Below the pieces are notes generated by a model that saw only the letters and a program-made list of their open reading frames with translations, did not search any database and was not told where the DNA came from. Source: Chelatococcus sp. YT9 (GTDB lineage Bacteria; Pseudomonadota; Alphaproteobacteria; Rhizobiales; Beijerinckiaceae). From it: a DNA stretch of 64,000 nt. The translations under genes and the position numbers were made by a program. The stretch lies in contig NZ_JAHBRW010000002.1 of the NCBI RefSeq assembly GCF_018398315.1, positions 1,658,637 to 1,722,636 on the forward strand, written 5' to 3'. Of this stretch, positions 2,646 to 20,646 are shown in pieces; position 1 is the first letter of the stretch; every line of letters starts with the position of its first letter.

Positions 2646-2662
2646 TCATATAAATGATTTGA
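2646..2662 (+). promoter_or_regulatory. Operator site A (TCATATAAATGATTTGA)
   Basis: This AT-rich 17-mer sits 49-65 bases before the ABC ATPase start, in otherwise GC-rich DNA. It is one of five matching sites in region 1 (consensus TCATCTAAATGATTTGA). It contains two overlapping small palindromes, TCAT-N4-ATGA and AAATGATTT. Its end overlaps a possible -35 box, TTGACT at 2659-2664, with TACCTT 17 bases later as a weak -10. That geometry fits a repressor site. Assignment to the FadR-type regulator at 6584 is inference from proximity and from where the five copies lie. Confidence 0.55.
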
Positions 2663-2710
2663 CTCAAATGAGCCCGGGAACTACCTTCTTTGCAATGGTT
2701 GGGAGGAGTG

Positions 2711-3508
2711 ATGTCGGTTTACAGGCTGCAATCATCGCCGATGAAAGCCGCGCCGGTACGGCCGGTGGCTTTCGACTTTGATGGCGTGGTCGCCCGGTTT
2801 GGGGCGCTTCATGCCATGGGGCCGACCACTCTGTCCGTGCGGCAAGGCGAGTTTCTGGCGGTGGTCGGGCCGAGCGGTTGCGGCAAGTCCACTCTGTTGA
2901 ACATGGTGGCGGGCACGCTTAGTCCGGCCGAAGGCGTCGTGCGCTACAAGGGTGAAGAGGTAACCGCGATCAATCACGATGTCGGTTACATCACCCAGAA
3001 GAATTTCTGCCTGCCGTGGCGCACGGTGGAGGCAAATGTCCGGCTGCCGCTCGAATTCCGCAGGATTCCAAAGGACGAGACCGAGCGGCGCGTGCGCGTT
3101 GCCATCGACAAGGTAGGGCTCGGCGGCTTCGAGAAAGCCTACCCGAGGCAATTGTCAGGCGGCATGTTGCAGCGTGTGATGATCGCGCGAACGCTTGCCT
3201 ATGAGCCAGATATCTACCTTATGGACGAGCCGTTCGGCAGCCTTGATGCGCAGCTACGGACGCGCATGCATGGCGAGCTCCTCAAGCTGTGGCAGGACAC
3301 CGGCGCCACCTTCGTCTTCGTGACGCATGACCTGCAGGAAGCGATCACCCTGGCGGATCGCGTCGTGGTCATGTCCGGTCGGCCCGGACGTCCAAAGCTT
3401 GTCGTGGATATCGATCTGCCGCGTCCCCGCGACGTCATCGACATCCAGTCCAATCCTGCCTTTGGAGCTTATGTCAAAGAGCTCTGGGCAGCCTTGGACG
3501 TGCATTGA
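2711..3508 (+). CDS. ABC transporter ATP-binding protein, Tau/Ssu/Ntr type
   Basis: The protein is the cytoplasmic ATPase of a nitrate/sulfonate/taurine-type importer (265 residues). Visible motifs are Walker [10 protein letters not shown] (about 53-61), a Q-loop in ITQKNF, the signature LSGGM (about 148-152), Walker B with DEP (172-174) and an H-loop in FVTHD. I chose ATG 2711, preceded by GGGAGGAG; in-frame TTG 2690 and GTG 2708 are possible but less likely. The permease follows after 13 bases. No binding protein is in this operon, and the nearest candidate is the NMT1-type gene at 8667-9653. Substrate class is uncertain: homologues import sulfonates, aromatic acids or pyrimidines. Confidence 0.92.
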
Positions 3509-3521
3509 GGGAGCGGGTGGC

Positions 3522-4346
3522 ATGAGCGCGGGCACCAGCTTTTCAGGTAGCACACATCGCAAACGGGTACTCTCTGGCGATGTCTTTCTCCAGTTCGGTC
3601 TGGCCATCGTTGCCGTCGCCGCTTGGGAATTCATCGCGCGGAGCTTTGGCACCGAATTCTGGACGAGCAGCCCAAGTGCGGTCGCGGCTGAGCTTGGGCG
3701 GTGGGCGGCATCCGGTCAACTTGCGATCGATCTGCAGCTTACGTTGACTGAAGCTGGCGTAGGCTTCGTCATCGGCAGCCTTGCCGGTGGATTGATCGGC
3801 TTTATTCTGGGGTGGATGAGACGTCTGGGCGATCTATTTGAGCCGTTTATCCTTTCGCTATACACGTTGCCAAAGATCGCACTTGCTCCTCTTTTTGTTC
3901 TCTGGTTCGGGATCGGCGCAACGAACAAGATCATGTTCGCGGCGATGCTCGTATTCTTCATGGTCTTCTTCACGACATACCAGGGCACTCGCCAGGTCGA
4001 CCGCGATCTCGTCGAGAACGCACGCCTCCTTGGCGCCGGCAAGTTGGATATCTGGACGAAGATCGCCATTCCCTATTCAGCGGTTTGGATCTTTACCGGT
4101 ATCCGCATCGGGCTTCCCTATGCGCTGATCGGCGCGATCGTCGGCGAATTCGTCGCGGCGGAAGCCGGCGTGGGATTCCGGATCAAAGAGGCGACGTCGT
4201 TCTTCAACACGGCCGCCGTCTTTGCCGGGCTGATCGTGTTGATGGTCATCAGCCTCGTTCTGCTCGGCCTGTTGAAGGTCGTGGAAAGCCGTGCGCTCGC
4301 CTGGCAGAGCGCAGGCAACCGTGTGAGCGCGGGAGACCCCGCATGA
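3522..4346 (+). CDS. ABC transporter permease, SsuC/TauC type
   Basis: This is a 274-residue inner-membrane permease with about six hydrophobic segments. It carries the BPD-type EAA loop (DLVENARLLGAGKLDIWTKIAIPYSAVWIFTGIRIGLPYALIGAIVGEF, taken in parts), the contact site for the ATPase encoded just upstream. The chosen ATG at 3522 follows GGGAGCGGGTGGC; earlier in-frame codons lie inside the ATPase gene. It probably works with the ATPase at 2711 and with the binding protein at 8667. The last base pairs contain an ATGA overlap with a 20-codon open frame that I do not consider a gene. Confidence 0.9.
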   Translation: MSAGTSFSGSTHRKRVLSGDVFLQFGLAIVAVAAWEFIARSFGTEFWTSSPSAVAAELGRWAASGQLAIDLQLTLTEAGVGFVIGSLAGGLIGFILGWMRRLGDLFEPFILSLYTLPKIALAPLFVLWFGIGATNKIMFAAMLVFFMVFFTTYQGTRQVDRDLVENARLLGAGKLDIWTKIAIPYSAVWIFTGIRIGLPYALIGAIVGEFVAAEAGVGFRIKEATSFFNTAAVFAGLIVLMVISLVLLGLLKVVESRALAWQSAGNRVSAGDPA

Positions 4347-4440: not shown

Positions 4441-5745
4441 ATGAAGCCGAGCTCGACATTTGATTTCAACGATATCCTGCGAGCAGGCGACACGATTGCT
4501 TGGCCACAGGGGTCAGGTGAGCCGCGGGGATTAACCCGGCGTCTTGTGGAAACGCGGCATAGCCTGCCGCCCGTGCGCCTGTTCATTGGCATGGTCACCA
4601 GCGACACCCTGTCTCCTGAATGCGCCGATTGCTTCGAATTGACGGGTCTCAACGGTGCGGGAAACAACCGCCGGCTGACCGCAGCCGGGGTGCTCCAGGT
4701 CATTCCCGTCCATGTCTCGTCCATCGCCCGACTGATTGACGAGGGGACGCTGCCTGTTGACGTGGCCCTCGTCCGCGTCCGTCCGTCGCGCGCCCCAGGG
4801 CATTACACGGTCGGCGTCGTTGCGGATTACACTCAGGCGCTCGTCAGGAATGCGCGTTGCGTCGTCGCTGAACTCGACGAGCGCATGCCAGAAACAGCCC
4901 ATGATGCGCTCGTCGCGGCGGACGACATCGATGTCTGGCTCGAAGCTGACAAGGACCAGATCCTGTTGCACGACGCGGAGCCTTCGATCGAGGAACGGGC
5001 CGTCGCCCGCCATGTTGCATCGGTCATTCCCAACAGGGCGACTGTGCAATTCGGCATAGGGGGGCTGTCCGTCGCGGTCGCGCAAGCCTTGAGGGATCAT
5101 CGCGACTTAGGCGTCCATTCGGGTGTCGTATCCGACGCGCTCGTCGATCTCATCGAAAACGGGACTGTCACCAACGCCTACAAGGGAGTCGACGAGGGGG
5201 TATCCGTCACGGGCTGTCTCTTCGGCAGCGATCGCCTGAACGCGCATGCCAGCGGCAATCCGGCGGTCGCGTTGCGTGCGGCGACGCACACGCACAATGG
5301 CGAAGTCATGGCCCGACTCAAGAGCCTCTACAGCGTGAATTCCGCGATCGAGGTGGACCTGACCGGGCAGGTCAATGCGGAGCAGGCGGGCGGTCGCTAT
5401 CTCGGGGCTGTTGGCGGACAGATCGATTTCGTGCGCGGAGCCCAACTCTCTCCAGGCGGCCGTTCCATTATCGCGTTACCGTCGACCACGCCTGACGGAC
5501 GAACCTCGCGCATTGTCGCCTCGCTCGCGGGACGACCGGTGACGACGGCGAGGTCAGAGGTCGATCTGGTCGTTACCGAATATGGGGTCGCCGACCTCAG
5601 GGGCTGTTCCTTCGCGAGGCGGATGGAGCACTTGGCGGCCATCGCGCATCCCGCGTTCCGTGATGCTTTGCTTCGGGAGGCGCGCGACGGCGCGCGGCCA
5701 AGGCCAGCATCCCAGTCAGTAGTCTCCGAGGCGCGTCATGTCTGA
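4441..5745 (+). CDS. Acetyl-CoA hydrolase/4-hydroxybutyrate CoA-transferase family protein
   Basis: This 434-residue protein has the two-domain layout of class I CoA-transferases of the acetyl-CoA hydrolase family (Cat1, AarC, AbfT). Visible are VQFGIGGLSVAVAQAL, the SAIEVDLTGQVNAE segment that in this family carries or flanks the catalytic glutamate, a GGQIDFVRGA motif, and the C-terminal VVTEYGVADLRG motif. It would move CoA from acetyl- or another acyl-CoA onto the pathway acid, activating it for the hydratase and dehydrogenase encoded next to it. The acceptor is unknown. Its end overlaps the next gene by 8 bases, indicating translational coupling. Confidence 0.88.
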   Translation: MKPSSTFDFNDILRAGDTIAWPQGSGEPRGLTRRLVETRHSLPPVRLFIGMVTSDTLSPECADCFELTGLNGAGNNRRLTAAGVLQVIPVHVSSIARLIDEGTLPVDVALVRVRPSRAPGHYTVGVVADYTQALVRNARCVVAELDERMPETAHDALVAADDIDVWLEADKDQILLHDAEPSIEERAVARHVASVIPNRATVQFGIGGLSVAVAQALRDHRDLGVHSGVVSDALVDLIENGTVTNAYKGVDEGVSVTGCLFGSDRLNAHASGNPAVALRAATHTHNGEVMARLKSLYSVNSAIEVDLTGQVNAEQAGGRYLGAVGGQIDFVRGAQLSPGGRSIIALPSTTPDGRTSRIVASLAGRPVTTARSEVDLVVTEYGVADLRGCSFARRMEHLAAIAHPAFRDALLREARDGARPRPASQSVVSEARHV

Positions 5746-6571
5746 TCCCGAGCTGTCATCACAAGCGCAGGTCCAAGGACAAAGCAAGGAACAGGTCGAC
5801 GAACCGACCATCCTCGTCAAGCGCCTTGCGACGGGAGCGGTCGAGATCTGGCTCAACCGGCCCGGACGTCTCAATGCGCTCGGCGTGGCGATGGTCAACG
5901 ATCTCCAGGCCGCTGTCGGGGAGGTGATCGCGGAGAAAGCGACTGCCATCGTCCTGCGGGCGAAGGGGAGAGCGTTCTGCGCCGGCGCCGATCTCAAGGA
6001 GCGGCAGACCATGGAAGAGGCGGCGCGCCATGCGCATAACCGCGCGATCAACGCCGCGGTCAATGCCATCGCCGCCGCTCCTGTTCCGACGGTCGCGGTA
6101 GTCAACGGCCTTGCCCTCGGCGGGGGCTGCGAACTCGCGCTTGGCTGCGACATCCGCATTGCTGCATCAAGCGCGATGATCGGCCTGACGGAAGCCCGTA
6201 TCGGCGCCATTCCGGGGGCGGGGGGGACACAACGCCTGCCACGGCTCATCGGCGTCTCGCGCGCGCTGGACATGATGTATTCCGGGGAGCCAATCACCGC
6301 GGCGCGCGCGCATGAAATCGGCCTCGTCAATCTCTGTGTGGAAGACGATGGGCTAGACGCAGCGGTTATGCGATATACGGAGGTGCTTGGTTCGCGCTCG
6401 CCGGCTGCTGCGAGCACCTTGAAGAAGGTCGTGTACGAAGGGGTGGAGATGTCATTGGCCGGGGGACTGGAACGGGAGCGCGAGGCGCTGGGTGTCATCT
6501 TTGGATCGGCCGATTACGCGGAAGGGTTGGCAGCCTTTGCGGAAAAGCGGCCACCGCAATTTTCACGATAG
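5738..6571 (+). CDS. Enoyl-CoA hydratase/isomerase (crotonase superfamily)
   Basis: The 277-residue crotonase fold starts about 30 residues in, after a hydrophilic N-terminal tail. The oxyanion-hole segments are ADLKERQTM after FCAGAD and NGLALGGGCELALGCDIRIAA. The first catalytic glutamate lies in LTEARIGAIPGAGGTQRLPR. The position of the second crotonase glutamate appears to be aspartate (ALDMMYSGE), as in some hydratases with altered specificity. It hydrates or isomerises an enoyl-CoA in the cytoplasm. It overlaps the CoA-transferase gene by 8 bases and ends 12 bases before the regulator, so the three are probably cotranscribed. Confidence 0.92.
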   Translation: MSDPELSSQAQVQGQSKEQVDEPTILVKRLATGAVEIWLNRPGRLNALGVAMVNDLQAAVGEVIAEKATAIVLRAKGRAFCAGADLKERQTMEEAARHAHNRAINAAVNAIAAAPVPTVAVVNGLALGGGCELALGCDIRIAASSAMIGLTEARIGAIPGAGGTQRLPRLIGVSRALDMMYSGEPITAARAHEIGLVNLCVEDDGLDAAVMRYTEVLGSRSPAAASTLKKVVYEGVEMSLAGGLEREREALGVIFGSADYAEGLAAFAEKRPPQFSR

Positions 6572-6583: not shown

Positions 6584-7339
6584 ATGGATGCCTCACCCAC
6601 GATGCCGAAAAGCAAGGCTGAGCATGTCGCGCAGCGCCTGCTTGACAAGATCATCACGGCGGGCCTTGCGCCCGGCAGCTCCTTCGGCACGGAGGCTGAG
6701 CTTCTTGCACAGTTCGACGTCAGCCGCCCGACGCTTCGCGAAAGCCTACGCATTCTGGAATCCCAGGGTGTGCTGGAGCTCAGGCCGGGCCCGCGCGGCG
6801 GTATCATGGTGCGCAAACCGAGCACCGATATCCTTGCGCACGGACTGTCGGTCTATCTGCGGCTGCATGATGTGCCGTTCATCGCGGTGCTGAAGGCACG
6901 CGAGGTGATCGAGCCTGCCTTGGCCTCGGAAGCTGCTATCAACGGTACGGAAGAGGACTTCGACGAGCTGGAAGCCTCCATCCGCCGCATGAAGGCGATC
7001 GACAAGGACCAGACGGCCTTCATCGAGGAAAACCGCATCTTCCATAGCATCATCGCCCGCGCCAGCGGCAACAAGGTGCTCGAAACCTTCTGGCATACGA
7101 TCAGTATTCTGGCGACCGGGGAGCATCATGGTGTCCGCTACTCCTTTGGCAACCAGCAGCATGTGATCGAGGCTCACCAGGGCATCCTTGATGCCTGCCG
7201 CGCGCGCGACAACAAGGTGGCTGCCGCCAAGATGGAAGCGCATGTCACCGAGCTCGAACATCTTGTCCGCAAGCGTTACCAGAACCTGCTGACGCAGCCG
7301 ACGAGCGTCGTTGGCCGCCAGGGCCGTCGCATAGCCTGA
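6584..7339 (+). CDS. GntR-family transcriptional regulator, FadR/FCD subfamily
   Basis: A GntR-type winged helix fills residues about 10-70 (KAEHVAQRLLDKIITAGLAPG, then FDVSRPTLRESLRILESQGVLEL). An all-helical FCD ligand domain follows, with the usual histidines in NRIFHSIIARASGN, EAHQGILDAC and EAHVTELEH that often hold a metal and a carboxylate ligand. At 251 residues it is normal length. It is the only regulator gene inside region 1. Five copies of one AT-rich site stand before the surrounding operons, so it is the best candidate for the pathway switch. Effector is probably a small acid or acyl-CoA of the pathway, by analogy with the family. Confidence 0.93.
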   Translation: MDASPTMPKSKAEHVAQRLLDKIITAGLAPGSSFGTEAELLAQFDVSRPTLRESLRILESQGVLELRPGPRGGIMVRKPSTDILAHGLSVYLRLHDVPFIAVLKAREVIEPALASEAAINGTEEDFDELEASIRRMKAIDKDQTAFIEENRIFHSIIARASGNKVLETFWHTISILATGEHHGVRYSFGNQQHVIEAHQGILDACRARDNKVAAAKMEAHVTELEHLVRKRYQNLLTQPTSVVGRQGRRIA

Positions 7340-7383: not shown

Positions 7384-7400
7384 AAAATTAAATGATTTAA
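7384..7400 (+). promoter_or_regulatory. Operator site B (AAAATTAAATGATTTAA)
   Basis: This second copy of the region 1 site lies only 18-35 bases before the acyl-CoA dehydrogenase start. It matches the shared core TAAATGATTT exactly and diverges in the left arm. It includes the perfect palindrome TTAAAT-G-ATTTAA (7388-7400). Its closeness to the start codon suggests that a bound protein would block transcription start or early elongation. Confidence 0.5.
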
Positions 7401-7418
7401 CTGAATTGGGGACAGGAC

Positions 7419-8582
7419 ATGGACTTTCAGCTCACCGCCGACCAGCGCGAGATGGTCAACACCGTGCGGGCCGTGACCCAGGAGAAGATCAAGCCGCGTT
7501 CGCTGCAGTACATGGACGGCACCTTTCCGTGGGAAAGCATGAAGGATCTCGCCTCGATCGGCGTTCTCGGCATGGCCGTGCCGGAGGAATACGGCGGATC
7601 GGGCCTCAGCGTGCTGGACACGGCCCTTGTTCTGGAGGAAGTCGCCAAGGGCTGTTACGTCACTGCGATGGCGCTGATGGGGGAGGTCGGCGTGCAGGTG
7701 CGCATCATCTCCACCTATGCACCCGAGGCGATCAAACAGCGGATTCTGCCCGGCGTTTGCACAGGCGAGCACATGCTCGCGGTCTGCATGACCGAGCCCC
7801 ACGCGGGCACTGACGTGGCGAATTACCGGACCAATACGGATATCGTCGGCGACAAGCTCGTGCTTAATGGCACCAAGACACTGATCAGCCGGGTAGACGA
7901 AGCACAAATGTTCGTGGTCTTCACGCGCATCAACAAGCAGCCAGGCCGCGAGGGTATCGGTTGCGTCCTCATCGAGCGCGATACACCCGGCTTCCAGTGC
8001 ACGGCGCGCTATCACACCATGGGTGGCGAAAACCTCGCCGAGATCACTTTCGAGAATTGCGAGTTGCCTCTCGAAAATCTTGTCATTCGCGAGGATGGCT
8101 TCCGCCGGCTTCTCAGCGCCTTCAATACCCAGCGATGCCTCAATCCGAGCGTATCGCTCGGGCTCGCCGAAGGGGCCTTCGAGGAATCCGTGAAGTATTG
8201 CCGCGATCGCACGGCCTTCAAGCGTCCGATCGGCGAATTCCAGGGCATGCGCTGGAAGCTCGCCGAGATGTATCGCGACATCGAGATCGGCCGCAGCATC
8301 CTTTACCGCGCCTGTGCCACGGCGAACCCATTCCCTGATCCCTATCAGGCAGCGCTCGCCAAAATGTACTGCAATGAAATGGCCATCCGCGTGACGAGCG
8401 AGGCTATCCAGGTGCACGGCGGTTATGGCTTCACGGACGAGTATCCGGTCTCGCGCTTCTATCGTGGCGCCCGCTACGGTACGCTCGGTGGCGGCACCAC
8501 GGAAACGCTCAAGGAGCTCGTGGGCAAGAAGATCATGACCGACTTTCCCCATGACGGCTTCCTCGGCATGGGCAGTTTCTGA
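7419..8582 (+). CDS. Acyl-CoA dehydrogenase homologue lacking the usual catalytic bases
   Basis: The 387-residue protein has the full three-domain acyl-CoA dehydrogenase fold: N-terminal helices, the middle beta domain (MLAVCMTEPHAGTD, MGGENLAEITFENCELP) and C-terminal helices with FKRPIGEFQGMRWKLAEMY, IQVHGGYGFTDEYPVSRFYRGARYG and LGGGTTET. By manual alignment, the position of the MCAD-type glutamate is Gly368. The position used by isovaleryl-CoA dehydrogenase is Gln238 (FNTQRC instead of LERL). It may therefore do non-dehydrogenation chemistry, as 3-sulfinopropionyl-CoA desulfinase does, or use another base. The start has GGGGACAGG ahead of it. Confidence 0.85.
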   Translation: MDFQLTADQREMVNTVRAVTQEKIKPRSLQYMDGTFPWESMKDLASIGVLGMAVPEEYGGSGLSVLDTALVLEEVAKGCYVTAMALMGEVGVQVRIISTYAPEAIKQRILPGVCTGEHMLAVCMTEPHAGTDVANYRTNTDIVGDKLVLNGTKTLISRVDEAQMFVVFTRINKQPGREGIGCVLIERDTPGFQCTARYHTMGGENLAEITFENCELPLENLVIREDGFRRLLSAFNTQRCLNPSVSLGLAEGAFEESVKYCRDRTAFKRPIGEFQGMRWKLAEMYRDIEIGRSILYRACATANPFPDPYQAALAKMYCNEMAIRVTSEAIQVHGGYGFTDEYPVSRFYRGARYGTLGGGTTETLKELVGKKIMTDFPHDGFLGMGSF

Positions 8583-8645: not shown

Positions 8646-8666
8646 CTACTAACGGCGGGATCGGCT

Positions 8667-9653
8667 TTACTTGACCAGCATCGATGCTGGATCGACGGCA
8701 TCGATCTGGGGCAGGGAGGTTCCGGTCGATTTCACGAACGCTACTTCATGCGCCATATCGGCGGCGGTCAGCGGCCTTGCCTTCCATGCGGCCGCTTCGC
8801 CGGCATAGAGCAGATCGAGGGTCTTGGCGTCGACATCCGGATAGAGCTTCGCGACAGCGGCCTTGACTTCGGCTGGCCGCTCTTCGATGGCTTTGCCGAG
8901 GTCCGCGACGACTGAAGCCAGCGCCTTCATCAGGTCTGGGTTGGCGGCGGCGAAGTCCTGCATGGTCTGCAGGCTCACTGAGCTCGCCGGCAGGTTCTGG
9001 GGCGGAAGCTCGGCTTTCGGGCCGCTCAGCCACAGGACGGCCTTGTCCCTCACCACGGGTACGCCCCAGAACGGAGCTCCGGCGATGAAGCCCTGGATCG
9101 CACCTTTTTCCAAGGCGGCGACCATGGCGGGCTGGGCCATATAGGTGAAGCGGATATTGGCGCCGGCCGCCTCCGCTGCCCCCTTGAACGATACCGTGTA
9201 GGACGAAGTCGCGCTGGTCGAGCCGATAATGAGCCCGTCCAGCGCCTTCAAGCGTTCAGTAGGGGATGCGGTCGGGGATACGCCAGTCTTCTCGGCAACA
9301 TCCTTGGCCAGGACGAGCGATGCGCTCAGACCATTATACGTGTTGGCGATCGCGACCACCTTTTGGCCGCGGCCCTGGGCCGCGACGAGCTCGCCGGGGC
9401 CGGAGAGGACAACTTCGACAGACTTGGAGATGAGGGCCGTCGTCGCGCTGTTGGCGTTGTCCATAACGATGATCTTGGCATTAAGCCCATGCTTCTCGAA
9501 AAGCCCAAGCTCTTTTGCGATCCGAATGGCGGCGGTGCCGAAGCTGAGCGAGCTGATTGGTATGCTGATATCCCGCAGCTGCGCCATCGCTGGCACGGAA
9601 ACAAGGCAGGCTGCGCAGACCAGGCCGCGTAGCCAATACTTCATAGGCCGCAT
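8667..9653 (-). CDS. ABC transporter substrate-binding protein, NMT1/SsuA-like
   Basis: The protein (328 residues) has a signal peptide (MRPMKYWLRGLVCAACLVSVPAMA, cut into two here as a hydrophobic core ending at AMA). The mature region shows the NMT1/Tau/Ssu pattern: SSLSFGTAAIRIAKELGLFEKHGLNAKIIVMDNANSATTALIS in pieces, then LKALDGLIIGSTSATSSYTVSFKGAAEAAGANI. The ATG at 9653 has GGAGGG at good spacing. It follows the aldehyde dehydrogenase gene by 73 bases on the same strand. It likely supplies the missing periplasmic component for the ATPase and permease at 2711-4346. Ligand unknown. Confidence 0.88.
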   Translation of the reverse strand: MRPMKYWLRGLVCAACLVSVPAMAQLRDISIPISSLSFGTAAIRIAKELGLFEKHGLNAKIIVMDNANSATTALISKSVEVVLSGPGELVAAQGRGQKVVAIANTYNGLSASLVLAKDVAEKTGVSPTASPTERLKALDGLIIGSTSATSSYTVSFKGAAEAAGANIRFTYMAQPAMVAALEKGAIQGFIAGAPFWGVPVVRDKAVLWLSGPKAELPPQNLPASSVSLQTMQDFAAANPDLMKALASVVADLGKAIEERPAEVKAAVAKLYPDVDAKTLDLLYAGEAAAWKARPLTAADMAHEVAFVKSTGTSLPQIDAVDPASMLVK

Positions 9654-9726: not shown

Positions 9727-11169
9727 CTAGTTCAGAACGAAGAAGCGTTCTTCCGTCATATCCTTGATCGAATATTTCGGGCCCTCGCGCCCGACGCCGC
9801 TGTCCTTGACCCCGCCGTAAGGCATCTGGTCCGAGCGCCAGCGGGACGTGCCGTTGACGATCACTCCACCCGTGCGCACGCCCTTGATGGCGGACAGCGC
9901 AAGCGCGAGCGAATTGGTGAAGATCCCGCATTGCAGGCCGAAAGGGCTGTCGCTGATGGACTTAAACAGCGGTTCTATATCCTCATAGGGCTGCAGGCTC
10001 ATGGCGGGGCCGAAGATCTCGTCGCACATCACGCTCATATCGGAGCGGACATTGGTGAGGATGGCCGGGTCGAGCTGCGCACCGTGCCGTGACCCGCCAC
10101 GCAGCAAGGTCGCGCCGGCCTCGACAGCCTGGCCGATCATCCCCTCGACGCGGATCGCCGCCTGCTCGTCGATCAGGGTGCCGACCTCGGTCTGCATGTC
10201 CATTGGATCGCCCAGCGCAAGGAGCCCCACTTCATCGTGCACGGCTGCGACGAAAGTCTCGTAGACGGGCTTGTGAACGAAAACATTCTGCACGGAGATG
10301 CAGCTCTGGCCGGCGAGCAGCATCGCGTTGCGAGCGCAGGCCTTCGCGGCTGCGGCCAGATCGGCATCGCTGTGCACGAAGGTGGGGCCGACGCCGCCTA
10401 GCTCAAGGGCAACGCGCTTCATGCCGACCGTGCCCCGGATGATCTTGCCGACGCGGGTGGAACCCGTGAAGCTCACGAAATCAACCCGGGGGTCGGAGAC
10501 GAGCTGTGGCGCGATCGCATCGCCATAGACGGTGTTCACGGCCCCAGCTGGCAGTCCGGCGGCGACAAAGGCTTCCACGAAGAGATGGACGCAGAGCGGC
10601 GCCTTCGGCGATGACTTGAGCACGATGCTGTTCCCCGCCGCGATCGCAGGGCCAAGCTTGTGCGCGGCGAGATTGACAGGCGCGTTGAACGGCGTGATCG
10701 CTGCGATGACGCCCGCTGGGAAACGCATCACCATGGCGATTTTTCCAGCGCCTATGGCGCTCGCATCCATGGGGATATGCTCGCCCTGGATGCGTACCGC
10801 TTCCTCTGCGCAAAGGCGCAGTGTGTCGGCCGAGCGCTGCGTCTCGAAGATCGAATCGCGCAACGCCTTGCCGGTTTCGCGCGACATGGCCCGCGCGATC
10901 TCGTCCGTGCGGGCGGCGACATTATCCGCGGCGCGGCGCAACACGGCGGCGCGCTCGTAGCCGGGCATGGCTGCCATGGTCTCCTTAGCCCGAAAGGCGG
11001 CGTCCAGGGCATCGTCAAGATCCCCCGCCGTCGATACCGGCGCGAACGCCACAACTTCCCCACGGTAGGGATCGCGAATTTCCGTGACCTCTTCAGGCTC
11101 TCGCCAATGGCCACCGATGAAAGCCTTGATGGATACGGCTTGCGGTGCGCGGCCCTGCGCGTCGAGCAT
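9727..11169 (-). CDS. NAD(P)+-dependent aldehyde dehydrogenase
   Basis: This 480-residue protein is a standard soluble ALDH. It has the cofactor segment ITPFNAPVNLAAHKLGPAIA, the VSFTGSTRVGK turn, the general-base glutamate in ALELGGVGP, the catalytic cysteine in LLAGQSCISVQNV, and the C-terminal MPYGGVKDSGVGREGPKYSI motif. The sequence is closest in feel to lactaldehyde/glyceraldehyde-type and aromatic-aldehyde ALDHs, so substrate is open. ATG 11169 has GGGAGG six bases ahead; an upstream in-frame start at 11235 would run through operator C. It probably oxidises the aldehyde made by one of the neighbouring alcohol dehydrogenases. Confidence 0.93.
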   Translation of the reverse strand: MLDAQGRAPQAVSIKAFIGGHWREPEEVTEIRDPYRGEVVAFAPVSTAGDLDDALDAAFRAKETMAAMPGYERAAVLRRAADNVAARTDEIARAMSRETGKALRDSIFETQRSADTLRLCAEEAVRIQGEHIPMDASAIGAGKIAMVMRFPAGVIAAITPFNAPVNLAAHKLGPAIAAGNSIVLKSSPKAPLCVHLFVEAFVAAGLPAGAVNTVYGDAIAPQLVSDPRVDFVSFTGSTRVGKIIRGTVGMKRVALELGGVGPTFVHSDADLAAAAKACARNAMLLAGQSCISVQNVFVHKPVYETFVAAVHDEVGLLALGDPMDMQTEVGTLIDEQAAIRVEGMIGQAVEAGATLLRGGSRHGAQLDPAILTNVRSDMSVMCDEIFGPAMSLQPYEDIEPLFKSISDSPFGLQCGIFTNSLALALSAIKGVRTGGVIVNGTSRWRSDQMPYGGVKDSGVGREGPKYSIKDMTEERFFVLN

Positions 11170-12497: not shown

Positions 12498-13724
12498 TTC
12501 GTCCTTGAGCGCGGCGAGTTCTTCTTCCGAATGTCCCAGCCATGCGCCGAACACGGTATCGTTGCTCGCACCGAGCGGCAGGCTCGGCTCGATCGGCCGG
12601 CGTGGCGTGCCCTCGAAGACGAGGGGTGAATGGGGCAGAACGACCCGGCCGAGTTCCGGATGGTCGACCCACTGCAGGCTTCCACGCGCATGCATGTTTT
12701 CGTCGAGGATGACCTCCGACAATTCGCGTACCGGTGCGCAGGGCACCGCTGCAGCCAGCATCAGCCGCGCGATCTCGGCTTTCGGCATCGTCCGCGTCCA
12801 GCTCTCGATGAGCTCATCGACATCCGCGAAATTCACGACGCGTGTCGAGCGGGTCAGGAAACGCGGATCATCCTTGAGATCCCCGCGCCCCATCACCTCG
12901 AGGATGGCGCGGAAATGGTGATCGCCGGGCGCGTTGAGAACGACATAGCCATCGCGGGCGGCATAGACGTTGTAGGGTGATATGCCAAGGCCGCCATGGC
13001 GATTGCCGGTACGGGCGGGGGCGGCGTCGCCGCGCGCGTGGAGCATGCCGAGATTCGAGGCGAGCGAGGCATAGGTGGCGTCCTGCATCGAGACCTCGAC
13101 CACGCGGCCCTTGCCCGTGCGTTCACGTTCGTAGAGCGCTGTCATGATTGCTGCGTAGAGATGGATGCCGGCGCTGAAATCGCACATGGCCGCCCCGGAT
13201 TTCACCGGCGGTTGGTCGGGATAGCCGGTGGAGTTGATGACGCCGCACATCGCCTGCATGACGAGATCCATGGCCGGATAGTCGCGGTAGGGGCCTGTCT
13301 TGCCGTAGCCAGAGCTCGAACCATAGATCAGCCGAGGGTTGACACCGTGCAACGTGGCCGCCCCCAGGCCAAGGCGGTCCATGACGCCTGGCGCGAAATT
13401 CTCGACGAGGATGTCGGCGTGCGCCGCCATCTCCTTGAGAAGCGAGCGCCCCTTGTCGGATTTCAGGTTGAGCGTCACCGGCTTCTTGTTGGAATTGAGC
13501 ATCGCGAAGGGAAGCGCCGCCCCGCCCATATCACCCCGGCTGCGCAGGTGCTCGCCATGATGCGGTTCCACCTTGATGACTTCCGCCCCGGCCATGGCCA
13601 TGAGAAAGGTGGCGTAGGGCCCGTTATAGACATGGGACAGATCAATGATCGTTATCCCGGCAAGGGGCAGGCCCTGATTGTCCTTGCCGTCCTCGGCGCC
13701 TTGATTGGCTGTCGCCTGAAGCAT
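12486..13724 (-). CDS. CaiB/BaiF (family III) CoA-transferase
   Basis: This 412-residue protein has family III CoA-transferase hallmarks: LAGITIIDLSHVYNGPYATFLMA at the N-terminus in pieces, GAEVIKVEP, LNLKSDKGR, the ENFAPGVMDRLGLG loop and SSSGYGKTGPYRDYPAMD. The aspartate ending that last segment (about Asp173) matches the catalytic Asp of formyl-CoA transferase. It transfers CoA between carboxylic acids through an aspartyl-CoA anhydride. It is the second CoA-transferase of the cluster and of a different family from the one at 4441, implying two different acids are activated. ATG 13724 follows GAGGG. Confidence 0.92.
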   Translation of the reverse strand: MLQATANQGAEDGKDNQGLPLAGITIIDLSHVYNGPYATFLMAMAGAEVIKVEPHHGEHLRSRGDMGGAALPFAMLNSNKKPVTLNLKSDKGRSLLKEMAAHADILVENFAPGVMDRLGLGAATLHGVNPRLIYGSSSGYGKTGPYRDYPAMDLVMQAMCGVINSTGYPDQPPVKSGAAMCDFSAGIHLYAAIMTALYERERTGKGRVVEVSMQDATYASLASNLGMLHARGDAAPARTGNRHGGLGISPYNVYAARDGYVVLNAPGDHHFRAILEVMGRGDLKDDPRFLTRSTRVVNFADVDELIESWTRTMPKAEIARLMLAAAVPCAPVRELSEVILDENMHARGSLQWVDHPELGRVVLPHSPLVFEGTPRRPIEPSLPLGASNDTVFGAWLGHSEEELAALKDEGVI

Positions 13725-13866: not shown

Positions 13867-13883
13867 TAAAATCATTTAGATGA
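13867..13883 (-). promoter_or_regulatory. Operator site D (minus-strand TCATCTAAATGATTTTA)
   Basis: This fourth copy fits the consensus best, with perfect TCATCTAAATGATTT. It lies in the 208-base divergent spacer between the CaiB-type gene and the iron-alcohol-dehydrogenase homologue, 50 bases before the latter's start and 143 from the former. It sits in a run of A/T unlike the rest of the spacer. Confidence 0.6.
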
Positions 13884-13932
13884 AATAATGCAATTCTCTC
13901 CATGATCGTTGCGGATGCCAAGGAGCGCAGCC

Positions 13933-15129
13933 ATGCAGACCGAGGCCGTGCAGACTTCCCGGTCTTTCCGCCATTTTGCGCCAGCCACGCGCCTGTACTA
14001 CGGCGAAGATAGCCTCGAATCTCTCCGGCTGGAACTGGACCGGGCTGGTGTGAAACGTGCCGTAATATTCTGTGGTCGCTCGCTCTCGCGGCATCCCCTA
14101 GGGTTGCCGCATGTCGCCCGGCATCTCGGCGCGCTCCATGTTGGCAGCTTCACGGACGTCACGCCGCATAGCCCCCTTCCTGCGATCATTGCCGGCAGGG
14201 ATATGTTGCGCGCGACACGCGCAGACGGGGTTGTCGCGCTCGGTGGAGGATCCGCCATCGTTTCCGCGCGTGCAGCAACGATCCTGCTGGGTGAGGACCG
14301 TCCGCTCGATGCGCTGGTGACCCGCTTCACGCCCGGTCAACCACCACGGAGCCCGCGGCTCCAGGCGCCGAAACTACCCCAATTCGCTGTGGCGACGACA
14401 CCGACAACAGCGATCGCCAAGGCGGGCACTGCGGTCCTCGATCCCGCATCCGGCAAGCGGCTCACCATGCTCGATCCGCGCACGCGCGCGCAGGCCATTT
14501 TTATCGACCCGCGCCTTGCCCAGCTGACGCCTGTGGACGTCATTCGGGACGCCGCTCTGAATGCCTTCGCAATGGCGGTGCAGGGGCTGGAATCCCACAT
14601 GCGGCAACCGCTGGCTGACGCGTCTCTTCTTGAGGCCGTGCGCCTGTTGCGCGACAATCTCCCACACCTTGGCTCACGCGTGGACGGCGCCGACGTTCGC
14701 GGCGCGCTGCTGCTTGCAGCGGTGCTGACCGGACAAGGGACCGACCAGACGAGCTCTGGCCTGACGTCTGCGCTCGGCCATTGCATTGGCGCGCGCCATC
14801 ACACCGCGAACGGCACGATCAACGCCATCCTGCTGCCGCATGTCATGCGCTTCAACGGACGGGTGACGGGCGAACGCATGGCGGCCGTTGCCGCGATGTT
14901 GGGGGTCGACGCGCCAGCGCAGATGGGAGCGGCGGAGGCGGCTGCACGTGCCTGTGCCACTTTCTTCGCGCGTCTCGGGCTGCCGTCCCGGCTCAGCGAT
15001 ATCGGTATCGATACGGCGGCGTTCGAGCTGATCATCGCTGATCTGCAGGAGGATTGGTTCTTCCATCAAAACCCCCGCCAGATCGAGTCCTCGCAGCAGG
15101 TTCGCGACATTCTGCAAGCCGCGCTGTAG
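13933..15129 (+). CDS. Iron-containing alcohol dehydrogenase/maleylacetate reductase homologue without metal ligands
   Basis: The 398-residue protein has the family III (iron) ADH layout: an N-terminal Rossmann-like half with VVALGGGSAI and a helical C-terminal half with LLLAAVLTGQGT and INAILLPHVMRFN. At the four positions that normally hold the metal (Asp, His, His, His) it has Asn210 (LNAF), Met214 (FAMAVQ), Ser279 (LTSALGH) and Asn293 (TANGTINA). It may be metal-free, catalyse different chemistry, or be non-catalytic. The frame is intact and has a good AAGGAG seven bases before ATG 13933, so it is expressed rather than decayed. It is probably controlled by operator D. Confidence 0.85.
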   Translation: MQTEAVQTSRSFRHFAPATRLYYGEDSLESLRLELDRAGVKRAVIFCGRSLSRHPLGLPHVARHLGALHVGSFTDVTPHSPLPAIIAGRDMLRATRADGVVALGGGSAIVSARAATILLGEDRPLDALVTRFTPGQPPRSPRLQAPKLPQFAVATTPTTAIAKAGTAVLDPASGKRLTMLDPRTRAQAIFIDPRLAQLTPVDVIRDAALNAFAMAVQGLESHMRQPLADASLLEAVRLLRDNLPHLGSRVDGADVRGALLLAAVLTGQGTDQTSSGLTSALGHCIGARHHTANGTINAILLPHVMRFNGRVTGERMAAVAAMLGVDAPAQMGAAEAAARACATFFARLGLPSRLSDIGIDTAAFELIIADLQEDWFFHQNPRQIESSQQVRDILQAAL

Positions 15130-15177: not shown

Positions 15178-16041
15178 TCAGTCCGCCGCCAGGTCCCTCA
15201 GCGTCGACAAGTCATGAACGGCAGGTTCCTCATGTAGTGCCGTGAGCGTGACGCCGTTGATGGTGATCGAGGGATAGAGCTCGCGCACCAATGGGTCATG
15301 TCCAGGAATGATGCGGTCGACGGCGCCGGCGATCTCCAACATGCGGCCGTAGGAGCGCAATGTCGCGGCAACGTCCACCGTCAAGGCGAAGGGAGCGCGA
15401 CGAAGAAAATTGGCATAGAGATGGCTGACGTCCGAGGCGAGCAGTACCGGTCCGCGCTGTGTCTCGACCTTGACCGCTTGTAATCCCCGGCTATGGCCTG
15501 GGAGGCAATGCAGCGAAATGCCGGGAAGCGGCGCGGCATCTCCGTCGTGGAAGTGCACACGCTCCGCATAGACATGCCGCACGAAGGTGACGACATCCTC
15601 CACATCGAACGGGAAGCGCAGCACCGGCTCGCACATGCAGCGTCCCGTCGCGAAGGCGGCCTCCGCATCCTGCACATGAAAGCGCGCTTTCCCGAAACGA
15701 TCGATGTTTCCCGCATGATCATAGTGAAGATGCGTGAGGACGATGTCCTCGATCCTATCCGGATCGACGCCAATCCGCCGCAATGCCTCTACCGGGTCGA
15801 AATCGAGCGGCCGCTGTCGCTCATCAGCGGCGCGGGCGCCGAAGCCGGTATCGACGAGCACCGTGCGCGCTGCGTTGCGCAAGATCCACAGATTGAAGTC
15901 GAGCGGCATCGGCCCGTCATGCATGTCCCGCCGGAGGAAATTCTCATGCACACGGCGGCCGGGCGCTCTCGCATAGCAGAGCTGATAGATCTGGTAGGTT
16001 GCGTCGTCAGTGGTGTCCGTTATTGGCAAGCTGTCCGGCAC
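15178..16041 (-). CDS. MBL-fold hydrolase, N-acyl homoserine lactonase-like
   Basis: The protein (287 residues) is a metallo-beta-lactamase-fold hydrolase. The di-metal motif HLHYDH is at about 104-109, a further histidine is in LPGHSRGL, the bridging aspartate is in LLASDVSH, and the last histidine is in IIPGHDP. Length and the N-terminal LWILRNAARTVLVDTGFGA segment resemble AiiA/AttM-type lactonases. In a catabolic cluster it more likely opens a pathway lactone or thioester than a quorum signal. The GTG start at 16041 has GGGAGGGG just ahead and lies inside the end of livF (35-base overlap), so the two are translated together. Confidence 0.88.
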   Translation of the reverse strand: MPDSLPITDTTDDATYQIYQLCYARAPGRRVHENFLRRDMHDGPMPLDFNLWILRNAARTVLVDTGFGARAADERQRPLDFDPVEALRRIGVDPDRIEDIVLTHLHYDHAGNIDRFGKARFHVQDAEAAFATGRCMCEPVLRFPFDVEDVVTFVRHVYAERVHFHDGDAAPLPGISLHCLPGHSRGLQAVKVETQRGPVLLASDVSHLYANFLRRAPFALTVDVAATLRSYGRMLEIAGAVDRIIPGHDPLVRELYPSITINGVTLTALHEEPAVHDLSTLRDLAAD

Positions 16042-16739
16042 TGTCCCCTCCCAGATAGGCGTGTTGAATCTTGTTGCTCGCCAGCAAGTCACTGCTCCTG
16101 CCTTCGAGTACCACCGCGCCGGTCTCCAGCACGTAGGCATGGTCGGAGATTTTCAGAGCGAGCTTGGCATTTTGCTCAACAATGACAACGGTGATGCCTT
16201 CGTCATTGATTGTACGGACGAGCCGCGCCACCTCATGGATCAGCTTGGGCGCGAGGCCGAGCGTGGGCTCGTCCAGCATCAGTAGGCGCGGGTGGCTCAT
16301 CAATGCACGCGCGATGGCAACCATCTGCTGCTCACCACCCGAAAGGCTGGCGGCGACCTGACTGCCGCGTTCGGCGACACGCGGAAAAACGGCATGCAGA
16401 AAGTCGAGCCGGCTGCGGAATAGCGCGCGATCCTGAACTCGATAGGCCCCCATGCGGATGTTCTCGTAGACTGTCAGTTCCGGAAACAAGCGGCGCCCTT
16501 CGGGGCAGAGGGCAATGCCTCGGTCAAGCCGCTCATGGGGCTTGAGCCCAGTGATCTCTTGTCCCGCGAAGCGGACAGCGCCGGCGTTCGGTCTCACTAC
16601 ACCGGCGATCGCCTTGAGCAGAGTCGATTTGCCCGCCCCGTTGGCGCCGATAATGGAGACGACGCCCTTTTCCGGGATGACCGCCGACACCTTGTGGAGG
16701 GCGTGAACGCCCGCGTAGTCCACCGAAAGGCTCTCGACC

Positions 16740-16753
<14 letters not shown>
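16007..16753 (-). CDS. livF: Branched-chain amino acid-type ABC transporter ATPase LivF
   Basis: This 248-residue ATPase has Walker A GANGAGKST, the signature LSGGEQQ, Walker B LLMLDEPTLGL and the H-loop in VVIVEQN typical of LivF. Two starts are possible (16759 or 16753). Both lie inside the end of livG, giving a 14-20-base overlap. It completes a LivHMGF set with the adjacent genes and the binding protein at 19433. In this context the importer probably serves an aromatic, branched or dicarboxylic pathway substrate rather than amino acids. Confidence 0.93.
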
Positions 16754-17497
<744 letters not shown>

Positions 17498-17501
<4 letters not shown>

Positions 17502-18421
17502 GCTGGCTTCCTTCGCGGTCGGTCCACCAACGAAACGAGCCCCTGCTTAATGAAGATGAGGAACACCATCAGGCAAAGCCCATAGATGAGGAGTTGATAC
17601 TGCCTCGCCTCACGTAGCAGTTCCGGCAGCGGCACGACCACGATCGCCCCTAGCAGGGGGCCAAGAGCGGCGCTCGTCCCGCCAATGACATTCATCACGA
17701 CGAGATCGACAGAAAGCTGAAAACCGAAGGCCTGTGGCGACAGAAAACCAATATAGAAGGCGTAGATGCCACCGCTGACGCCGGCGATTGCGGCGCTGAA
17801 CGTGAAGACCGCGATACGCCAGGCGAGCGCGTCGGCGCCGATCGAACGGCTGAGCATTTCGTCTTCGTTCAGGGACTGCAGGATCGCGCCAATGTCGGAA
17901 CGCTCGATCGCTCGTACCATCCAGTAGGCGAGGGCGGTGAAGAGCAGCGCGAAGACATAGTATTGCGGGACGGCGGTAAGACGGTATCCGGCTAGGGAGA
18001 ACTTCGGGATGCCATAGAGCCCGCTGTTTCCGCCGAACAGCGATGTCCATTCCTGGAAGACGAGATTGACGATCTGTCCAAAGGCATAGGTCAGGAGTAC
18101 GAAATAGACGCCCTTGATGCGCAGAAAGACCGGGCCGAGCAGAAGCGCAACCAGCGCCGCCATGAGGCCGCCCGATGCGAGCGAGGCGACCGGCGGCAGA
18201 CCGAGCCGCATGGTCAGAAGTGCGCTCGCATAAGCGCCTATGCCCATGAAGGCAGAATGCGCCATGGACAGCTGGCCGATGCGCAGCATGAGATTCATGC
18301 TCAGGGCGAGCGGCGCCATGATCGCGATCATGGTGGCGATGTGGAAGACATATCGATTGTTGGCGATCCAGGGAACCGTGGCGAGAAGGCCGATCGCGGC
18401 GAGAAGGACAAGGCGCTTCAT
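17498..18421 (-). CDS. livM: Branched-chain amino acid-type ABC permease LivM
   Basis: This is a 307-residue membrane protein with about eight to ten hydrophobic helices and LivM landmarks GQLSMAHSAFMGIGAYASALL, FGQIVNLVFQEWTSLFGGNSGL (in part), and VMNVIGGTSAALGPLLGAI near the C-terminus. ATG 18421 overlaps the livH stop by four bases (ATGA). An upstream extension of the frame would run antisense-like through livH and is not needed. It forms the channel with LivH. Confidence 0.92.
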
Positions 18422-19272
18422 GGCGCACCTCGTCCCATCAGGCCAGTGGGGCGCATCACCACGATCAGGAGCACGATCGTGAATGAAGCAATCAGCGCCG
18501 TCGTGGAACTGAACAGCGTCGACAAGACCGATTCGGACAACCCGATCAGCAGCCCACCGAGGACGGCGCCAGGCACACTGCCGAGGCCTCCGAGGATGAC
18601 GACCACGAACGCCTTGAGCATGGGCAGTTCCCCCATATACGGGCCGATGGTGTAGATCGGCGCCATGAGCCCCCCTGCGAGGCCGGCGAGGGCACAGGCG
18701 ATGCCGAAGGCGGAGGCATAGATGAGCCCGGATTCCACGCCCATCAGACTGGAGGTTTCGCGGTCCTGCGCGACCGCCTGCATGGCAAGGCCAAGCCGGG
18801 AATGCTTCAGGAACAGGTAGAAGACCACGAGAATGATCAATGCGGCTATGGCCACGACCGTACGATCCCATGGCACGACGGCGTTGACGAGTTGCCAGGT
18901 GCCGGAAAATGGCCGTTGAACGGATTGCTCCGATGGTCCGAACAGAATGAGAGCGATCGACTGCAGGGTGATGCCGACGGCAAGTGACATGATCATGCCG
19001 GGCAATTCATCGCCCACGAGCGGGCGGAACAGCACACGCTCGATGACGATGCCCAGCGCGGCGGCCAAGATCCCGGCTGCCGCGACGGCGAGGAAGAAGT
19101 TCCACCCCAGAGCGCCGAACAGAAACAGCACAACCACCGCCCCTGCCATGTAGAACTCGCCGTGGGCGAAATTCACAATACGCATGATGCCGAAGATCAG
19201 CGTGAAGCCCAGCGCCATGATGATGTAGATAAAGCCAGCCAAGAGACCGTTGACGATCATCTGCTCGATCAT
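18418..19272 (-). CDS. livH: Branched-chain amino acid-type ABC permease LivH
   Basis: The protein (284 residues) is very hydrophobic. It shows LivH signatures GFIYIIMALGFTLIFGIMRIVNFAHGEF (in part) near the N-terminus and VVILGGLGSVPGAVLGGLLIG near the C-terminus. It is the first of four overlapping genes livH-livM-livG-livF plus the MBL hydrolase. The binding-protein gene lies 160 bases upstream on the same strand, probably on the same primary transcript. Confidence 0.92.
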   Translation of the reverse strand: MIEQMIVNGLLAGFIYIIMALGFTLIFGIMRIVNFAHGEFYMAGAVVVLFLFGALGWNFFLAVAAAGILAAALGIVIERVLFRPLVGDELPGMIMSLAVGITLQSIALILFGPSEQSVQRPFSGTWQLVNAVVPWDRTVVAIAALIILVVFYLFLKHSRLGLAMQAVAQDRETSSLMGVESGLIYASAFGIACALAGLAGGLMAPIYTIGPYMGELPMLKAFVVVILGGLGSVPGAVLGGLLIGLSESVLSTLFSSTTALIASFTIVLLIVVMRPTGLMGRGAP

Positions 19273-19432
19273 CGCAGCCGTTCTCCCTGGACATGCAGGC
19301 CCTCTGCACGCCGATATGCCATATCATCGTTCCCCAAATCGGAGGCGTGACCCAAGGCTTCGGGATCCGACCGAGCCCGGGGGGAGGCGCGGAGCACCTT
19401 CCCCAATGCGGCCGCCGTTAAGCTGGTCCTCG

Positions 19433-20593
19433 CTACTTTGTCTTACCGATCACGACTGGTTGGCCGTCCCGAATGACGCCGATGTAGTTGACGGTCATGA
19501 TCTGGTTATCGACCCCCGAGATTGCCTTGCCGCCGAGGCTCAACTGATCGCCCTGCACGGATGGCATGGGAAGGACGGAAGCGAAGGCTGCGGCCACCTT
19601 GGCGGTGTCGCCGGGGTCGCCTGACTTCTGAATGGCCTTCAGGAGGACATTGGCGCCATCGTAGAATGACACCAGAATTTCGTTCGGATCCTGTCCGACA
19701 GACGTCTTGTAGGCGGCCGCGATGCGCCGGTAGCCCTCGTTGGCCGGGTCGGCGTAGAGCATGTTGATGACACCCTCGGCGGCCTTCGCGCCCGCGCCCG
19801 CAACGATTTCGGCCGGTCCGGCGCCACCAGTCTTGCTGAACAGCTTGTCATAGCCGAGTTCGCGCGCCTGGCGGATGATGAGGCCGGCAGTGGCGGGCGA
19901 CGTGCCGCCAAGCTCGATGATATCGGGCTTCATGGCGATGATCTTGGTCAGGAGCGGCTGGAAATCCTTCTGAGCGCGCTCGAACATTTCATGGCCAAGA
20001 ACCTCGAAACCATTCTCCTTGAACAGCTTTTCGCTGAGCTGTGTCTGATCCCAGCCCGTCTCGTCGTTGGGATTGAGGATGACGACCCGCTTGTCCTTCA
20101 CATTGTCCTTCATCCAGGCAATGAAGGAGGGCACGTAGTCAGCTGGCGTGCTGTACATACGGAACATGTACTTGGTCGAGGGCTCGATTGCCTTGGCGGT
20201 ATAAGCGGCTGTCACCGCGACCACCTCGTCGTCCTCGACGTTCTGCTTCAGCGCCATCGTGGCCGCTGAGCTCAGGATGATCATGTATTTGACGCCGTCC
20301 TGATTGACCAGGCGGTTGTAGGCGGCGACCGCTTCGGCTGCCTTGTACTGATCGTCATAGGCGACGACCTCGACCTTGTAGGTCTTACCACCGACTGTCA
20401 GTCCACCCTTGGCATTGATGTCTGCCGCCAGGATCTTCGGCGCCTCAGCGGCCGCAATTCCCCACGGCGCGCCGGCGCCTGTCAAAGGGGCGATCACGCC
20501 GATCTTGATCGTGTCGGCCGCCATGGCCGTCACCACACTTATGCTCAGCGCCAGGACCGTCGTTGCAGCCGCAAGATAGGGCTTGAATTTCAT
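19433..20593 (-). CDS. ABC transporter substrate-binding protein, LivK/amide-type
   Basis: This 386-residue periplasmic protein has a clear signal peptide (KPYLAAATTVLALSISVVTAMA) and a type I binding fold starting IKIGVIAPLTGAGAPWGIAAAEAPK (in part). It is the ligand-binding partner of LivHMGF. GGGAGGAG precedes ATG 20593, and operator E lies a further 37 bases upstream, tying the importer to the region 1 regulon. The 160-base gap to livH has no gene and probably lets this protein be made in excess. Confidence 0.93.
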   Translation of the reverse strand: MKFKPYLAAATTVLALSISVVTAMAADTIKIGVIAPLTGAGAPWGIAAAEAPKILAADINAKGGLTVGGKTYKVEVVAYDDQYKAAEAVAAYNRLVNQDGVKYMIILSSAATMALKQNVEDDEVVAVTAAYTAKAIEPSTKYMFRMYSTPADYVPSFIAWMKDNVKDKRVVILNPNDETGWDQTQLSEKLFKENGFEVLGHEMFERAQKDFQPLLTKIIAMKPDIIELGGTSPATAGLIIRQARELGYDKLFSKTGGAGPAEIVAGAGAKAAEGVINMLYADPANEGYRRIAAAYKTSVGQDPNEILVSFYDGANVLLKAIQKSGDPGDTAKVAAAFASVLPMPSVQGDQLSLGGKAISGVDNQIMTVNYIGVIRDGQPVVIGKTK

Positions 20594-20629
20594 GGTTGCT
20601 CCTCCCTATACCGCTCGTTCCGAGACGTT

Positions 20630-20646
20630 ATAAATCATATAGATCA
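20630..20646 (-). promoter_or_regulatory. Operator site E (minus-strand TGATCTATATGATTTAT)
   Basis: The fifth copy of the region 1 site is 37-53 bases before the LivK-type gene. It is the weakest match (TATATGATTT core; left arm TGATC). Position and strand agree with the other copies. The gene to its right (20795) is more than 140 bases away and is probably outside the regulon. Confidence 0.45.

Follow-up and report, generated by a model that had tools for sequence, protein, structure and literature searches.

Gene content of the locus and an AT-rich dyad before its operons

We analysed a stretch of 64,000 nucleotides from the genome of the soil bacterium Chelatococcus sp. YT9 (Alphaproteobacteria, Beijerinckiaceae; contig NZ_JAHBRW010000002.1, positions 1,658,637 to 1,722,636 of the forward strand), hereafter the window, located on contig C2 of this 6.74 Mb genome (G000 in our set). 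Between about 2.6 and 20.7 kb, the window contains a cluster of transport and catabolic operons preceded by AT-rich sites. The only regulator gene in this interval among the scanned open reading frames (at least 150 amino acids (aa)), as a preliminary description of this DNA had already stated, encodes an FCD-type GntR protein (6584-7339). The same description had placed sites at 2646, 7384 and 11207 on the plus strand and at 13867 and 20630 on the minus strand, and all five were present on re-inspection. The AT-rich sites are real, but the directional 17-mer under which they had been aligned is replaced by an 18-bp dyad, AAATCATnTAnATGATTT: in the window, the full 17-mer with up to three mismatches recovers three of the five sites (2646, 11207 and 13867), and the 7384 site scores 7.1 bits in its earlier register, compared with 26.4 bits for the best dyad there (7390-7407). 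Most likely, judging from the sequence, these five sites, probably together with a weak sixth one, are operators of the regulator encoded at 6584-7339, a predicted autoregulated local repressor. The five sites are as follows (bit scores and ranks are those of the matrix described in the next section):

S1, 2643..2660, ATTTCATATAAATGATTT: centre 59 bp before the ATP-binding cassette (ABC) ATPase gene (2711); 23.1 bits, rank 5
S2, 7390..7407, AAATGATTTAACTGAATT: 20 bp before the acyl-CoA dehydrogenase gene (7419); 26.4 bits, rank 3
S3, 11204..11221, ATATCATCTAAAGGATTT: between the divergent aldehyde dehydrogenase and Zn-alcohol dehydrogenase genes, centre 43 bp from the aldehyde dehydrogenase start codon (11169); 25.1 bits, rank 4
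S4, 13869..13886, AAATCATTTAGATGAAAT: between the divergent genes for a CaiB-type CoA-transferase and an Fe-alcohol dehydrogenase (Fe-ADH), centre 55 bp from the Fe-ADH start codon (13933); 27.6 bits, rank 2
S5, 20632..20649, AAATCATATAGATCATTT: before the Liv-type ABC importer and lactonase genes, centre 47 bp from the LivK-like start codon (20593), with an aldose-epimerase-like gene diverging from it; 30.9 bits, rank 1

The start codons used for the spacings were read from the sequence around each site. The distances from dyad centre to start codon, 20-59 bp, come close to the roughly 20-65 bases originally given, whereas the number of sites between divergent genes rises from the two originally counted to three (S3, S4 and S5). 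The weak sixth site, of 16.0 bits, is located 2.3 kb before the window (L005:14365), ahead of the TctB and TctA genes, and draws its support from its counterparts in two congeneric genomes, which score 21.2 bits (G001) and 15.4 bits (G002). The genes of the cluster and its left flank are listed below:

35..940, plus: TctC-type binding protein (PF03401); tctB, tctA and the weak sixth putative operator lie upstream, outside the window
1015..2439, plus: MmgE/PrpD family protein, with a weak NCBIfam PrpD match (41.7 bits, cut-off 950)
2711..3508, plus: ABC importer ATPase, Ssu-like (PF00005)
3483..4346, plus: ABC permease, SsuC/SaoP-like; start uncertain, scanned as 3327-4343
4441..5745, plus: 4-hydroxybutyrate CoA-transferase-like protein of the acetyl-CoA hydrolase family
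5738..6571, plus: crotonase (enoyl-CoA hydratase)
6584..7339, plus: GntR/FCD regulator, 251 aa, at the end of the apparent S1 operon
7419..8582, plus: acyl-CoA dehydrogenase, under S2
8667..9653, minus: SsuA-like substrate-binding protein
9727..11169, minus: aldehyde dehydrogenase, under S3
11314..12444, plus: Zn-dependent alcohol dehydrogenase, under S3
12486..13724, minus: CaiB/BaiF-type CoA-transferase, under S4
13933..15129, plus: iron-containing alcohol dehydrogenase, under S4
15178..16140, minus: lactonase-like enzyme with a metallo-beta-lactamase fold, promoter-distal in the apparent S5 operon
16007..20593, minus: Liv-type ABC importer genes (F, G, M, H and K-like), under S5

Frequency of the motif in the genome

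The exact core of the motif, TAAATGATTT, is found three times in the whole genome, at 2651, 7389 and 13869, in each case within a site noted earlier; the same pattern read backwards yields a single match. With up to one mismatch allowed, the core has six matches in the window, one of these being an overlapping reverse match at 7390, compared with a mean of 0.60 and a maximum of 2 in 100 shuffles. Frequent occurrence at random positions, which had been named in advance as grounds for abandoning the motif, is not what the exact core shows: genome-wide, it is confined to the interval, although two-mismatch dyads are scattered. The pattern WTCATNTANATGATTT matches at six places genome-wide with up to one mismatch, four of them inside the interval, and produces 45 rows with up to two mismatches, compared with two for the reversed pattern; distinct places for this pattern were counted by hand from the scan rows. 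A general palindrome scan did not recover the operators.

A scoring matrix was trained on ten betaproteobacterial operators from loci that carry an ortholog of the regulator. When this matrix was run over the window, the five top matches were S1-S5, at 23.1-30.9 bits, and the next-best score, 14.3 bits, came from a position overlapping S1. In simulated windows, the mean maximum was 11.0 and the largest 17.1, and none reached 23.1. In leave-one-out runs, each of the ten training sites was recovered as the best match of its own locus (25.6-35.3 bits).

Conservation of the dyads with the regulator

Conservation before the same genes in related genomes had been proposed as a check, and it is evident in the two congeners, G001 and G002, where 98 of the 100 operator positions are identical, compared with 522 of 803 positions in the remainder of these intergenic stretches (Fisher p 5.6e-15). 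S1, S3, S4 and S5 are each identical at 20 of 20 positions and S2 at 18 of 20. The nearest named relative found, Chelatococcus asaccharovorans DSM 6462, encodes a 99% identical regulator. In a fourth Chelatococcus genome, G003, neither the regulator (searched at E <= 1e-40) nor the CoA-transferase (at E <= 1e-60) has a match, and the cluster sites were not found there; this genome has two other one-mismatch matches.

These comparisons bear on the possibility that no specific regulator is involved and that the AT-rich stretches serve as promoter elements or bend DNA in a general way. The location of the dyad centres 20-59 bp before start codons, with some dyads adjoining -35-like boxes, would suit such elements, but we regard this explanation as very improbable: the exact core occurs three times in 6.74 Mb, always in the interval, the sites combine dyad symmetry with conservation well above that of the surrounding intergenic DNA, and the cluster sites are absent from the regulator-free congener.

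Among more distant relatives, 15 of the 16 named ortholog loci, alpha- and betaproteobacterial, have a best site of at least 19.5 bits; these are the ten training loci and five of the six others (L019, L020, L029, L032 and L033). With up to three mismatches allowed, the 22-mer long form of the operator is found once per genome, as the cluster operator, in 10 of the 15 ortholog genomes, namely, those of the matrix training loci, and the control gave no match.

The best held-out case comes from a plasmid of Paracoccus denitrificans (NZ_CP141053.1), which encodes a 50%-identical regulator that was found by protein search alone, outside all designs. The cluster around it (L049:11777-36720), for which the record table gives no annotation, has four operators of 19.8-31.4 bits within 21 kb, and a 16-mer scan of the whole 1.73 Mb plasmid yielded five places, the four cluster operators and one further one-mismatch site. 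Three of its products resemble those of the window, namely, the lactonase (59% identity), the CaiB-type transferase (75%) and the Fe-ADH (42%). The cluster also holds genes for two aldehyde dehydrogenases, a thiolase, a hydroxyacyl-CoA dehydrogenase, and TRAP and Tct transporters, with no match for a lyase, and perhaps serves a related lactone or dicarboxylate pathway.

Because the dyad travels with the regulator gene across distant relatives, the regulator very probably controls these operons. What the preliminary description observed is confirmed and its interpretation as a regulon is supported, with the pathway being tentative.

Conflicting observations and other candidate DNA-binding proteins

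Several results weigh against this assignment. In the own genome, 31 of the 37 distinct two-mismatch places of WTCATNTANATGATTT are outside the cluster. One off-cluster site, at C1:1778776 (L006:6775-6792), scores 29.5 bits; it precedes a PRISE-like reductase gene and lies near a different FCD gene, the product of which is 29% identical to the 6584 regulator. Of 149 family genomes, 76 contain the loose 16-mer with up to one mismatch, and the regulator ortholog is far rarer: orthologs (E <= 1e-50) were found in at least 4 of 298 family, at least 2 of 397 order and at least 1 of 385 class genomes. Each of these counts includes the own genome and is a lower bound, with at most 9, 6 and 7 candidates scored per genome, respectively. 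The null distribution for the matrix comprises only 20 first-order Markov simulations of 64 kb, and both the sixth site (16.0 bits) and one L020 site (16.9 bits) fall under the simulated maximum of 17.1. In the training loci, second-best scores reach 18.7 bits. No site was found in L031, the contig of which begins inside the PrpD gene, or in the locus of a 36%-identical Rhodococcus homolog, and the 22-mer long form was not found in five of the 15 ortholog genomes. Furthermore, the matrix test is partly circular: a pattern derived from the window sites and L004 (control, 0 in 16 loci) had first led to nine of the ten training sites, and the tenth came to light when the corresponding region of L023 was read. 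That pattern did not include the outer arms, the placement ahead of the same operon or the occurrence of a sole long-form site per genome.

Isolated sites mean little because the loose 16-mer is far commoner than the regulator, and the two off-cluster ones here are to be viewed with caution. As to the off-cluster sites themselves, the 16-mer of C1:1778776 is shared by G002 and was not found in G001 and G003 at up to one mismatch; at C2:861912 (L007:6913-6930), a 17.3-bit operator-like site adjoins a gene with an NADH:flavin oxidoreductase (Oxidored_FMN) domain.

Some of these data could indicate that another DNA-binding protein, encoded elsewhere, binds the dyads and that the FCD gene is in the cluster by chance. 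The binding of the FCD regulator is a prediction from sequence, a loose first look gave 92 candidate homologs of the regulator in the own genome (84-99 per Chelatococcus genome), and the strong off-cluster site is near another FCD gene. We nevertheless consider this scenario rather unlikely given that the motif follows this particular ortholog in alpha- and betaproteobacterial loci, the P. denitrificans plasmid included, that the only copy of the long form in 10 of 15 ortholog genomes is the one in the cluster, and that the FCD gene is the sole regulator among the window genes shared by relatives.

The regulator and its operator class

The protein encoded at 6584-7339 belongs to the FadR subfamily of GntR regulators by virtue of its GntR helix-turn-helix (HTH) and FCD domains, which score above their cut-offs (PF00392, 53.2 bits, cut-off 27; PF07729, 89.3 bits, cut-off 24.3). 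It does not pass for FadR itself, with 18.8 bits compared with the cut-off of 189 for the equivalog NF003444. The operator departs from the subfamily pattern. According to the excerpt of PMC4494728 used here, the subfamily consensus consists of TKGT/ACMA boxes; the sites of the window, read as TCATnTAnATGA, lack these boxes and have TCAT/ATGA instead, in line with the early remark that the motif does not look like the textbook FadR site. The missing boxes do not expel the regulator from the subfamily because the same excerpt names NanR and BioR as exceptions. BioR also recognises an AT-rich palindrome, TTATMKATAA, the dyad here being longer, with a 12-bp core TCATnTAnATGA, whereas the NanR operator consists of direct repeats and the present dyad is palindromic. 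With the subfamily, the system shares the domain architecture, an AT-rich palindromic operator near promoters and organic-acid genes.

A second difference from the subfamily lies in the protein: Ala38 aligns with an Arg of PdhR and NanR, and it is invariant in 16 aligned sequences (the window and 15 orthologs) and in P. denitrificans. The excerpted portion of PMC4494728 states that Arg at HTH position 28, which we equate with the site of Ala38, prefers G/C, a correlation that we read as applying to the K/M base of the boxes, not to GT. A connection of Ala38 with the change in the operator is suggestive only, and it is weakened by the Rhodococcus homolog, which has Ala as well: because this homolog lacks the motif, Ala alone does not predict the motif.

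No description of the operator (searched as TCATCTAGATGA, or as ATGATTTGA together with GntR) was recognised in literature titles and abstract starts, and the claim of an undescribed specificity rests on this limited literature search. The system combines a known regulator family with an operator not encountered in the literature searched. The family is very numerous, and to our knowledge, many of its members have no operator or ligand assigned to them. A regulator-operator pair predicted from sequence, supported across lineages and with an unusual half-site, offers an inexpensive test of how specificity shifts within this family.

Promoter overlap and the predicted mode of action

In the ten betaproteobacterial loci, the dyad is extended to TGTCAAATCATCTAGATGATTTGACA or near variants, and its flanks read TTGACA in nine of ten operators on each side (the exceptions are TTGACC on the right in L030 and TTGACG on the left in L034). 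A -10-like hexamer follows at 17 or 18 bp from these -35-like boxes; on the right-hand side, it is TAGCAT in eight of the ten loci and poor in L021 (CAAACT) and L028 (TACTGT). The outer arms are, probably, the -35 boxes of two divergent promoters. In the window, the right edge of S1 enters TTGACT, with TACCTT 17 bp further, and S3 is followed by TTGACA, 17 bp and TAGCGT (spacings by eye); unlike S1 and S3, the sites S2, S4 and S5 have no adjoining -35-like box.

A dimer of the regulator would sit on the dyad AAATCATnTAnATGATTT, probably over or beside the -35 box, and would repress the promoters at S1-S5, that of its own operon included. With a divergent -35-like box on either side of the betaproteobacterial dyad, occupancy by a dimer would shut off both promoters. 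Autoregulation is to be expected, since the apparent operon that includes the regulator gene begins at S1 in the window and at the operator in the betaproteobacteria. Release of the regulator would come from an intermediate of the pathway, probably a carboxylate, so that uptake and breakdown would be switched on together. The computations establish the sites, their clustering, their conservation together with the regulator and, in relatives, the overlap with promoters; the binding, repression, autoregulation, ligand and pathway are inferred from these.

The FCD protein could, alternatively, be an activator or act both ways: repression is the predicted mode, and FadR of E. coli is known both to activate and to repress. 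The betaproteobacterial dyads between two divergent -35-like boxes favour repression, and we assign the activator or dual mode a small share of the probability. We also considered whether overlapping dyads at a 9-bp offset signify cooperative binding. This idea was rejected; the offset scores had means of 2.1 and -1.0, and on reasoning, the shared half-site alone would give such scores.

The putative pathway

In the window, the lactonase, three dehydrogenases and two ABC importers are all under the same operator. Linking the operons into one pathway, as originally proposed, is plausible but unproven. Perhaps, the pathway leads from a lactone or hydroxyacid to a dicarboxylate and on to an acyl-CoA, with a core resembling methylsuccinate/itaconate clusters. 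The lactonase would open a lactone to a hydroxyacid that the alcohol and aldehyde dehydrogenases would oxidise to a dicarboxylate; a transferase would then supply CoA to the dicarboxylate, which could proceed to the acyl-CoA dehydrogenase and hydratase steps.

Across the 16 relative loci, the common genes are those for a CoA-transferase (14 loci), a crotonase (15), an acyl-CoA dehydrogenase (14), a CaiB-type transferase (13) and a CitE-like lyase (14, one of these partial), often with TctC and PrpD genes near. These counts were made by hand; L023 and L026 end early, and the neighbourhood of L033 is different. The CitE-like lyase is absent from the locus analysed here, which counts against the reading preferred above. 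The place of this gene in the window is an 84-bp gap (8583-8666) between the acyl-CoA dehydrogenase and SsuA-like genes, at the equivalent of which G001 and G002 carry the lyase (L012:11104-11973); a 50%-identical lyase paralog is encoded on contig C1 of the own genome.

The part of PMC12290011 on which we draw describes a set of CoA-transferase, hydratase, lyase, acyl-CoA dehydrogenase and MmgE/PrpD genes for itaconate and methylsuccinate. At the level of protein families, at which the comparison with the Pseudomonas aeruginosa and Cupriavidus necator cluster in that part was made, the window shares the CoA-transferase, acyl-CoA dehydrogenase and MmgE/PrpD proteins, and the relatives share the CitE-like lyase as well. 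Also, in C. necator, according to the same text, a gene for a tripartite-transporter binding protein is close by, as TctC is here. The differences from the described cluster are the crotonase in place of an itaconyl-CoA hydratase and the missing lyase in this strain.

A regulon specific for branched dicarboxylates of the methylsuccinate/itaconate type, fed by the lactonase and dehydrogenases of Chelatococcus, is a minority possibility. The core of the relatives (CoA-transferases, crotonase, acyl-CoA dehydrogenase and CitE-like lyase, with MmgE/PrpD and TctC genes near) is of like composition to the described set, and the best NCBIfam match of the lyase in relatives is RipC_Ccl. In the two proteins tested, however, this match scores 156 and 180 bits, below the cut-off of 375. 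The window has no citramalyl-CoA lyase (CitE-like), and the combination of MmgE/PrpD, CoA-transferase and acyl-CoA dehydrogenase, though present, agrees with such clusters only at the broad family level. The hydratase here is a crotonase, whereas itaconyl-CoA hydratase is of the MaoC type, and in the P. denitrificans cluster, genes for a thiolase and a hydroxyacyl-CoA dehydrogenase occur without a lyase match.

Taking the preferred assignment of the dyads to the 6584 regulator further, we tentatively suggest, as a proposal with somewhat less than even chances, that the orthologs form a distinct FCD class, distributed from Chelatococcus and Paracoccus to uncultured betaproteobacteria, which would recognise AAATCATnTAnATGATTT without GT/AC boxes and control an undescribed pathway from lactones or hydroxyacids to dicarboxylates, and that one ancestral divergent operator has grown into a six-promoter regulon. 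The operators mark transporters, CoA-transferases and dehydrogenases that probably form one uncharacterised route. The matrix scan of the window gave no high-scoring operator near a malonyl-CoA synthase-like gene that is located just past the regulon (22749-24455) and scores 863.5 bits against a cut-off of 558.

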